Source: SAR202 cluster bacterium bin22 (GTDB taxonomy: Bacteria; Chloroflexota; Dehalococcoidia; Lucifugimonadales; UBA3495). From it: 64,000 nucleotides of DNA. The notes beneath the pieces were generated by a model. The model saw only the letters and a list, made by a program, of their open reading frames with translations. It made no database searches and was not told where the DNA came from. A program made the translations under genes and the position numbers. The stretch lies in assembly GCA_002238505.1 (NCBI GenBank), contig MPMM01000002.1, forward strand, positions 62,001 through 126,000, read 5' to 3'. The stretch's first letter is position 1. Each line of letters begins with the position of its first letter. Below are positions 58,744 to 61,587 of this stretch, piece after piece.

Positions 58744-59640
58744 CTAGTCGCCAATTCTCCGGTACCACTCCGCAATTGCTGTCCCTACCTCATCCGGAGA
58801 GTCTTCCTGGATGAAGTGAACGCCGGGGACGGTTACTTCCTGCTGGTTGGGCCAGGCGCGGCAAAACTCCCGCTGGGCGCCAGTCAGTATTGCTCCCGGT
58901 TCAGCGTTAATGAACAACTTGGGGATGTCTGACCTGGAGAGCCAGGTGGCGTACTCATCGACAATGGCGACCACTTCCGGTGGTTCTCCCTCAATGGGAA
59001 TGTCTCGTGGCCAGGAAAGGGTGGGGCGGCGAGATTCGCCAGGCTCCTGGTAGGGGCGACGATAGACATCCATGGCTTCCTCGCTGACGCCATTCAATGT
59101 GCTGCCCGGCAACACTCGCTCCACGAAGACGTTGCTGGTCAAGACCATTTCCTCTCCTGCCGAAGAGCGAAAACCCTGGAATACCCGCCGGGCTGCCTCG
59201 GGCCATTCCTCCCAGGTAAGGGGACGTACCAGGGCCTCCATATAGGCCAGGCCCTTGATTCGTTCCTGGTTACGAAAGGCCCAATGGAATCCAAGGGCTG
59301 ATCCCCAGTCGTGGACTACCAGCGTGACCGGACCCTCGGGTATTACGGCGTCAAACCAGGCATCCAGGTGGCGGCGGTGGTCAACAAAGCGGTATGAACC
59401 GTCGGGAGTCTTTCCCGAATCTCCCATGCCGACCAGGTCTGGGGCCAGGCAGCGGGCCAGTGGCTCCACGTGGGGAATGACGTTCCGCCACAGGTAAGCG
59501 CACGTCGGGTTGCCGTGGAGGAATACGACGGGCGCCGCTCCCGAATTTGCCCCAGTGTCCACGTATGAGAGTTCGACGCCGGCACATTGTATACGGTGAC
59601 GGGTGTAGGGGTCGTGGGCGGGAATGTCATGGTCAGGCAT
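58744..59640 (-). CDS. dhaA: haloalkane dehalogenase
   Basis: This 298-residue alpha/beta-hydrolase matches the HLD-II type. Nucleophile Asp111 and halide-binding Trp112 lie in VVHDWGSALG, halide-binding Asn44 in LHGNPTCAYLWRN, Glu135 in YMEALVRPLTWEEWP and His275 in GVHFIQEDSP. The positions are close to those of DhaA. It would hydrolyse carbon-halogen bonds to alcohols. GAGGAGAT precedes the ATG. Substrate range is unknown. Convergent with the Uma2 gene. Confidence 0.93.
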   Translation of the reverse strand: MPDHDIPAHDPYTRHRIQCAGVELSYVDTGANSGAAPVVFLHGNPTCAYLWRNVIPHVEPLARCLAPDLVGMGDSGKTPDGSYRFVDHRRHLDAWFDAVIPEGPVTLVVHDWGSALGFHWAFRNQERIKGLAYMEALVRPLTWEEWPEAARRVFQGFRSSAGEEMVLTSNVFVERVLPGSTLNGVSEEAMDVYRRPYQEPGESRRPTLSWPRDIPIEGEPPEVVAIVDEYATWLSRSDIPKLFINAEPGAILTGAQREFCRAWPNQQEVTVPGVHFIQEDSPDEVGTAIAEWYRRIGD

Positions 59641-59884: not shown

Positions 59885-59959
59885 GGCTAAGAGAGACCAA
59901 CCAGCCATCCGGTATTGTCGCTGAAACCGGAACCTCAACTGTCTCCAGGAGGTTTGCCT

Positions 59960-60505
59960 ATGTCCCCAGTCACTAACGGCCAGATTACAGTGTTGAATCC
60001 CACCGCGCCGCCGCGAGAGTTGCGGACGGACATGGCATTGCGCCCGGAGGATTTGCGGGGGAAGAGCGTCGGATTTCTCTGGAACAGCAAGCCAAATGGA
60101 GATGTGCTGTTCGGGCGGGTGGAACAACTGCTGCGAGAGAAGTACGAGATTCCGGAGGCGCTGTACCGGCGCAAGCCCACGGCTTCCATTCCGGCGGAAT
60201 CGCAGGTTATCGAGGAACTGGCCGCCCGGGTGCAGGTGGCCGTGGTGGGACTGGGCGATTGAGGGTCCTGCACTTCGTGGAGTATCCACGACGCAGTGGA
60301 ACTGGAGCGGCGGGGCGTTGCCACGGTTACTGTCTGCAGCCACCTGTTCCAGCGACTGGGCGAGGTGGAACGGCGGTCGCTGGGAATGCCGGACCTGCCC
60401 ATGGCCATAGCTCCCCACCCCATAGGTGGTATGCCGGCCGAGACTGCTTCCGCCAAGGCTGATTCCCTTTTTGAAACCATAGTTGCGGCGCTGACCAGGC
60501 AATAG
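59960..60505 (+). CDS. UGSC-family selenoprotein (in-frame TGA = selenocysteine)
   Basis: This 181-residue protein reads through TGA at 60260-60262. Residues 91-105 are VQVAVVGLGD-U-GSCT, the UGSC motif; the same frame continues with SWSIHDAVELERRGVATVTVCSHLF to TAA-type stop at 60503. A stem-loop starting 5 bases after the TGA fits a bacterial SECIS. The ATG at 59960 has AGGAGG 7 bases upstream. The U-G-S-C pair would form a redox-active selenenylsulfide; the substrate is unknown. Short ORF calls split it into two pieces. A homologous family with U or C here is known, so a pseudogene is unlikely. Confidence 0.9.
60267..60297 (+). promoter_or_regulatory. bacterial SECIS-like stem-loop
   Basis: CTGC (60268-60271) pairs with GCAG (60293-60296), then TCGTGGA (60275-60281) pairs perfectly with TCCACGA (60285-60291) around loop GTA. 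The apical G-U lies 20-21 bases after the TGA, inside the 16-37 base window expected for SelB-bound bacterial SECIS elements. It also encodes SCTSWSIHDA. Confidence 0.75.
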
Positions 60506-60561
60506 GCTGCCCGCGTCGCCACCCACTTCTTGATACTCTTCCTTCCAATGGAGGCAATCCC

Positions 60562-61587
60562 TTGGCGTCACTGGAAGCCCAGCGCATTGACCTGCCCGAT
60601 GACTACGATGCTGTCCAGAACCTTTACCTGGAGCGGGGGTGGAGTGATGGCCTGCCGATAACGCCGCCCACGCCCGAGCGAGTGGAGGCGATGCTGGCCA
60701 CTGTCTCCCTGGAGCCTGGGCACGTGGTCGCACAGCTACCTCCCAACTGGGGCGACGCCACTGTGGAGCGACTGGCCATCAACGCAGTAATGGCTGGCTG
60801 CCTGCCCGACTACCTTCCCGTCATAGTTGCCGGTGTCTCTGCCATGAGCGATCCGGCCTTCAATCTGTATGCCATCCAGGCGACCACCCATTCCTGCGCG
60901 CCCCTGTTCATCGTAAACGGCCCGATCCGGCAGAAGCTGGGCATGAACAGTTCATCGGGAGCATACGGCCCGGGCTGGCGGGCCAACGCCACCATTGGGC
61001 GGGCGGTGAGGCTGGCCCTGCTGAATATTGGCGGGGGACACCCGGGCGTGGGAGATATGTCCACCCAGGGCGCGCCATCCAAGTACACCTACTGCGTAGC
61101 CGAGAACGAGGAGGCGAACCCGTGGGGGCCCCTGCACGTGGAACGGGGGTTTGAGCCGGACCAGAGCACGTTAACCGTGGTGGGTGGAGAGCCGCCGCAC
61201 AACATCAACGACCACACGGGCAGCACCGCCGAGGAAATTCTGACCATTATTGCCGGGGCGATGGCCGTCACAGGCGCCAACAACGCCTACACCGGCGGCG
61301 AAACCCTGCTGGCCCTGGGCCCCGAGCACGCGGCGACAATGCACATCGACGGCTTCACTAAGGATGACATTCGGGACTGGCTGAACCGCCACGCCCGCGT
61401 CCCACTGGAACGGTACACCGAGGCCACCATGCTGGAGCGTTTCGGACAGATTCCCGACGGCCCCGTTCCCATGGTGGGCAACCGCGAAGACCTGGCGATT
61501 ATCGTGCTGGGCGGGCCGGGGAAGCACTCCTCATGGGTGCCAACTTTTGGCGGTGCGACGAGGTCGGTGACGAGGGTGGTTGGGTAG
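60562..61587 (+). CDS. conserved UGSC-partner protein of unknown function
   Basis: This 341-residue protein lies 56 bases after the UGSC gene. It starts at TTG 60562 with GGAGG 7 bases upstream. Conserved-looking blocks are GWSDGLPITPPTPERV, AINAVMAGCLPDYLPVIVAGV, THSCAPLFIVNGPIRQKLGMNSSSGAYGPGWRANATIGRAVRLALLNIGG and PSKYTYCVAENEEANPWGPLHVERGF. The last block and the T-x-x-C-x-P segment look like a family I have seen only as uncharacterised. A cysteine in HSCAP may be functional. The terminator at 61638 ends the two-gene unit. Confidence 0.78.
   Translation: MASLEAQRIDLPDDYDAVQNLYLERGWSDGLPITPPTPERVEAMLATVSLEPGHVVAQLPPNWGDATVERLAINAVMAGCLPDYLPVIVAGVSAMSDPAFNLYAIQATTHSCAPLFIVNGPIRQKLGMNSSSGAYGPGWRANATIGRAVRLALLNIGGGHPGVGDMSTQGAPSKYTYCVAENEEANPWGPLHVERGFEPDQSTLTVVGGEPPHNINDHTGSTAEEILTIIAGAMAVTGANNAYTGGETLLALGPEHAATMHIDGFTKDDIRDWLNRHARVPLERYTEATMLERFGQIPDGPVPMVGNREDLAIIVLGGPGKHSSWVPTFGGATRSVTRVVG

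Follow-up and report, generated by a model that had tools for sequence, protein, structure and literature searches.

The window analysed here (the whole stretch of 64,000 nucleotides, positions 62001-126000 of contig C53) belongs to a genome of 4.39 Mb that is 97% complete. Towards the end of the window lies a gene of the UGSC family, which forms a single open frame when TGA is read as selenocysteine (Sec, U), followed on the same strand by a second conserved gene. The features of this pair are as follows.

59947-59952, forward strand: Shine-Dalgarno sequence AGGAGG, 7 nt 5' of the UGSC start codon ATG at 59960 (from the sequence)
59960-60505, forward strand: UGSC selenoprotein gene, 181 aa with Sec101, a single open frame with TGA read as U (PF24696, NF041046)
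60260-60262, forward strand: TGA, predicted Sec codon (Sec101); aligned relatives have TGA, a few Cys, and TAG in Blastococcus
60268-60296, forward strand: bacterial SECIS hairpin (comparison over 128 genes)
60269-60271, forward strand: codon of Cys104, the C of UxxC and likely the resolving Cys; Ser in three UGSS relatives
60550-60554, forward strand: Shine-Dalgarno sequence GGAGG of the partner gene, 7 nt 5' of its TTG start (from the sequence)
60562-61587, forward strand: conserved partner protein, 341 aa, TTG start, motifs DGLP...PPT and AVMAGC

The initial annotation had reported the ATG with its AGGAGG, the in-frame TGA at 60260, the motif D-U-G-S-C and one reading frame shared by both flanks, and all of these coordinates proved correct on the sequence, the motif lying at Sec101. 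Beyond the TGA the frame reads GSCTSWSIHDAVELERR and runs on to a TAG at 60503-60505.

The protein scored above the cut-offs of both available models, with a whole-length match to Pfam UGSC (PF24696; 4.9e-51, 173.7 bits, cut-off 25) and a match to NCBIfam UGSC_fam (NF041046; 139.7 bits, cut-off 125), and is therefore a UGSC family member, as had been proposed. It is an authentic and ordinary member of this already named family: it shares the DUGSC motif, the SECIS element and the many copies in environmental genomes, and no feature places it outside. The Global Ocean Sampling study of 2008 described the family under the name UGSC-containing selenoprotein, recorded 255 Sec and 21 Cys sequences and counted it among the top five selenoprotein families by abundance (PMC2398784). 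A 2026 review still assigns it no function (PMC13188914), in agreement with the earlier description of a marine metagenome family of unexplained role, and no biochemistry on any UGSC protein was found in the literature searched. One initial expectation failed, namely that standard annotation would miss the gene: since the current models PF24696 and NF041046 cover the family, UGSC genes are not bound to be missed by standard pipelines. An Rfam scan of the gene gave a chance match only. Divergent from it, at 58744-59640 on the reverse strand, lies an alpha/beta hydrolase gene that was judged haloalkane dehalogenase-like from its sequence.

Selenocysteine decoding and the SECIS hairpin

A family-by-family search of the genome recovered a tRNA-Sec with anticodon UCA (67.5 bits, cut-off 47), selB (348 bits), selA (542 bits) and selD (386 bits), all outside the window, where the initial annotation had supposed the decoding genes to be. 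The selD gene (C57:40142-41065) contains one in-frame TGA, for which reason SelD of this genome is probably itself a selenoprotein. Two PrdB-like genes on the reverse strand (L093, 781-1980, and L094, 1000-2184) carry an in-frame TGA within the motifs UPLC and UPRC (U161 and U229) and are probably further selenoproteins. The presence of selA, selB, tRNA-Sec and selD, together with in-frame TGA codons in selD and the PrdB-like genes, indicates that Sec decoding is used in several genes of the organism.

UGSC genes occurred in 94 of 294 genomes of the class, with one TGA each in all of the more than 100 listed matches. Four copies were found in this genome and eleven or more in some others. A cross-phylum set of 80 loci from many phyla, retrieved via the partner gene described below, likewise displayed TGA at the Sec site in nearly all UGSC genes, and homologues had open frames on both sides of the TGA. 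Culturable species with a UGSC-partner pair include Vineibacter terrae and Bacillus dakarensis. SelB was above its cut-off in 56 of 61 UGSC genomes versus 75 of 136 others. The Cys-for-U homologues suggested for comparison proved to be few; they were found in Natrialba, Sphingomonas, Mycobacterium gordonae, a Binatia bin and a Methanobacteriaceae bin. SelB scored above the cut-off in M. gordonae and below it in Natrialba, in Sphingomonas and in the Methanobacteriaceae bin, so that Cys forms are not strictly tied to the loss of Sec decoding.

Blastococcus displayed a third state, in which TAG occupies the Sec site and the same hairpin comes after it (L137, 4402-4899). A tRNA-Sec with anticodon CUA, UAG-decoded Sec and proteins with the UGSC motif have been reported from Geodermatophilaceae (PMC5330540). 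The Blastococcus gene fits this known UAG-reading tRNA-Sec as a further case of UAG-decoded Sec.

Cys104 was invariant in the A1 set. Three UGSS relatives, with Ser for Cys three residues past Sec, were recorded (L139, 4360-4857; L151, 725-1231; L152, 4245-4733). Another relative, adjoining two partner genes, had neither Sec nor Cys at the site (L124, 3059-3499; GEGGNPTA) and is possibly a non-catalytic paralogue.

The hairpin described in the initial annotation was found as given, at 60268-60296. Its upper stem comprises 7 bp (TCGTGGA/TCCACGA, 60275-60281 with 60285-60291) closed by the loop GTA (60282-60284) 20 nt after the TGA, and its lower stem 4 bp (CTGC/GCAG, 60268-60271 with 60293-60296). 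It occurs once only in the window. The hairpin of this one gene, folded alone, was no better than shuffles (z -1.08); its significance rests on the comparison of 128 Sec-UGSC genes. There, the Ser codon of the loop was AGT in 104 of 104 cases, whereas in the partner genes AGT accounts for 100 of 1314 Ser codons. Genes with Cys or Gly at this position had TGT (14/14) or GGT (2/2). The Val codon on the opposite arm was GTC in 38 of 39 genes with a facing G and GTG in all 34 with a facing C (38:1 vs 0:34, p=5e-20, a value not to be taken literally as the genes are related). Both states of this codon were found in several lineages, and all five core pairs were kept in 115 of the 128 genes. The invariant AGT and the synonymous Val change show that selection on RNA, not merely on protein, shapes the hairpin. 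The alignment of relatives thus places the hairpin under RNA-level selection and bears out the SECIS-like role first assigned to it; the case is an unusually clean example of synonymous covariation in a bacterial SECIS.

These data leave little room for other readings of the TGA. A plain stop or a sequencing error, with the 3' half as a pseudogene remnant or a separate gene, draws on the stop itself and on nothing further, and is extremely improbable given that the identical TGA recurs in hundreds of genes across several phyla, that Cys or TAG occupies the same column in other homologues, that the full selABCD set is present and that the hairpin covaries synonymously. Decoding as a different amino acid, such as Trp or Gly, is just as improbable: the genome holds SelA, SelB and a tRNA-Sec with a UCA anticodon, and homologues have Cys at the site. 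On comparative grounds, the UGA is almost certainly read as Sec by SelB and tRNA-Sec, aided by the hairpin just 3' of it. Membership of the UGSC family, decoding of Sec and the SECIS hairpin each have independent support, and neither finding that the initial annotation had named as a refutation was obtained.

Relationship and fold of the Sec domain

Profile search with 39 UGSC proteins yielded matches, albeit weak, to the GrdB model in 29 of them, and 10-19 matches for GrdF, PrdB, GrdH and TIGR01918, a pattern seen in no other family group. A UGSC profile (n=53 proteins) was then aligned by hhalign with a GrdB profile derived from the grd operons of this class. The match reached a probability of 96.6% across UGSC residues 80-180, Sec aligning with Sec and HPxG with YPxG, and a PrdB-like profile gave 96.4%; controls remained at or below 1.8% (reversed profiles) and 1.9% (40 column-shuffled profiles). 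Profile comparison thus shows, with high confidence, that the Sec-bearing half of UGSC and the Sec domain at the C-terminus of GrdB/PrdB are homologous.

The likeness to GrdB/PrdB (PF07355 group) concerns a domain of about 100 residues, in which the position of Sec, the UxxC, an E-x-x-G-[IV]-P-[TV] motif and HPxG/YPxG are shared. It does not extend to the full length: the TIGR01917 model, with a cut-off of 602.2, gave UGSC 15.6 bits, over residues 85-166 only. With 181 aa, UGSC is without the N-terminal part of GrdB, and its partner does not match, at the profile level, GrdE, the subunit that forms the pyruvoyl group. The PrdB-like proteins of the same genome share Sec-domain ancestry, UxxC and Sec encoded by TGA with UGSC but differ in their UPLC/UPRC motif, and no 341-aa partner was present among the genes listed around L093. 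Duplicated grd sets of the glycine/betaine reductase type were also recorded in genomes of the class (L204, L205), with GrdB motifs UGTGTRC, UGTCNRC and UGTSTRS; at L204, solute-binding protein genes adjoin them.

The AlphaFold2 model of UGSC (mean pLDDT 94.0) displayed five alternating strand-helix units between residues 36 and 178, with Sec101 located between the end of strand 93-99 and the start of helix 102-117. The thioredoxin topology (beta-alpha-beta-alpha-beta-beta-alpha) was not recovered, as the final beta-beta-alpha is lacking in the secondary structure of the model, to which this comparison is confined. The predicted fold is thus alternating beta/alpha, at odds with the literature, in which a thioredoxin-like fold had been assumed for UGSC (PMC2398784). 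The matches from Foldseek and VIA-align were generic alpha/beta proteins, at best with E 9e-5 and with Z 11.3 for a designed protein; thioredoxins were absent from these lists, which is not proof by itself. PDB sequences, searched with single sequences and with profiles, yielded no match to UGSC, its partner or the PrdB-like protein.

These results bear on the view that UGSC is a thioredoxin-like thiol/selenol oxidoreductase in which UxxC acts like CxxC, serving in the peroxide detoxification or disulfide repair suggested in metagenome papers. The UxxC motif itself speaks for it, as does the placement of UGSC among Trx-fold families in the 2026 review (PMC13188914). Against it stand the confident model without the thioredoxin end, the profile match pointing to GrdB/PrdB, and the combination of a near-constant large partner with many paralogues per genome, unusual for a general oxidoreductase. 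We consider this view unlikely.

The partner gene and a proposed two-component enzyme

The partner gene begins 56 bases after the UGSC gene. No Pfam or NCBIfam family matched it or its relatives, the closest named ones being in SAR202/Dehalococcoidia genomes, to which group the window therefore probably belongs, and no homologues were found in viral contigs. Both in the class and in other phyla the partner adjoins UGSC at most loci, upstream or downstream, usually within 50-250 bases. Among 197 genomes, 58 had both genes, three UGSC only, one the partner only (a weak match) and 135 neither (p=5e-45). Pairwise identities of the two proteins were correlated (r=0.81 over 47 pairs, reached in 0 of 2000 permutations), which in part reflects shared species ancestry. 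From this co-occurrence, UGSC very likely works together with the gene directly downstream.

Partner copies without UGSC in the fetched flanks were recorded in Poribacteria and at two Chloroflexi loci (L149, L160, L166 from Poribacteria; L153, L170), and the Poribacteria copies have a shorter C-terminal part. The UGSC/Unknown_1 fusion of the 2008 study similarly joins a UGSC domain to a second conserved domain, here present as a gene pair, and Unknown_1 may be this partner.

The neighbourhood was diverse; by raw counts among 118 neighbours, the most frequent were TctC receptors (9), family 5 solute-binding proteins (SBP_bac_5, 6) and CoA-transferase III (4), an assortment that would suit the catabolism of small acids or amides. 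The copy numbers of eleven or more, together with neighbouring carboxylate and peptide receptors, suggest that paralogues may act on different small molecules.

Conserved residues of the partner include D29, N74, C80, R147 and E181. Its structure model was confident (pLDDT 93.6) and had no Foldseek match below 1e-3. VIA gave Z values up to 6.7 over ~85 residues, within the chance range, and a new fold is not claimed. Alignment by hhalign with a GrdE profile from the same operons gave a probability of 0.1%, and no relation to GrdB appeared either.

In glycine and D-proline reductase, the Sec selenolate is proposed to attack a carbon of the bound substrate, giving a selenoether that is then resolved to a selenenylsulfide (PMC10298544). 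Since Sec, the Cys at the third position after it and the sequence around them are retained in UGSC, we propose the same chemistry on a substrate held by the partner. In such an enzyme of two components, a small organic substrate would be bound and oriented by the partner. The selenolate of Sec101 would attack this substrate and split a carbon-heteroatom bond as in those reductases, Cys104 would resolve the adduct as a Se-S bond, and a cellular dithiol would re-reduce that bond. The partner would thereby take the place of the pyruvoyl subunit (GrdE/PrdA), with no detectable relation to GrdE, while UGSS relatives would need an external thiol.

Reductase chemistry is not assured, because UGSC is without the GrdB N-terminal part and the partner without a profile relation to GrdE or GrdB. 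Further points against the mechanism are the three UGSS relatives, which have no resolving Cys, and the L124 relative, with neither Sec nor Cys; the two-component arrangement is weakened by four UGSC loci (L071, L072, L077, L079) with no partner within about 6 kb. UGSC and partner could instead be a Sec-dependent isomerase, hydrolase or lyase, the GrdB relation being domain ancestry only. In its favour are the partner, with no GrdE relation, no convincing structural match and, at low scores, hydratases and cyclic amide hydrolases as weak structural neighbours, and the dispensability of Cys104 in UGSS relatives. Nearly all members keep Cys104, however, and have Sec rather than Cys; the latter favours redox or strong-nucleophile chemistry. 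Such a non-reductive enzyme appears fairly improbable. The selenolate reductase as a whole, from authentic Sec decoding through the GrdB/PrdB-type domain and the partner to the chemistry proposed by analogy, has in our estimation an even chance of being correct.

Three aspects are new here and were not stated in the literature searched: the placement of the Sec domain with GrdB/PrdB, a predicted fold other than the assumed one, and the partner that occurs with UGSC almost one to one, the last with the reservation that it may be the Unknown_1 domain of 2008. Tentatively, and with slightly less confidence than in the mechanism itself, the pair may represent an uncharacterised class of two-component selenoenzymes, in which a Sec domain of the GrdB/PrdB type, no longer tied to a pyruvoyl system, acts with an unrelated substrate-binding protein. 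Such enzymes, occurring mostly in uncultured bacteria, some of them aerobic, would carry out the reductive cleavage of varied small organic compounds. Kinship of the Sec domain with glycine and proline reductases, together with a named partner, makes the function of UGSC testable on a purified two-protein complex.
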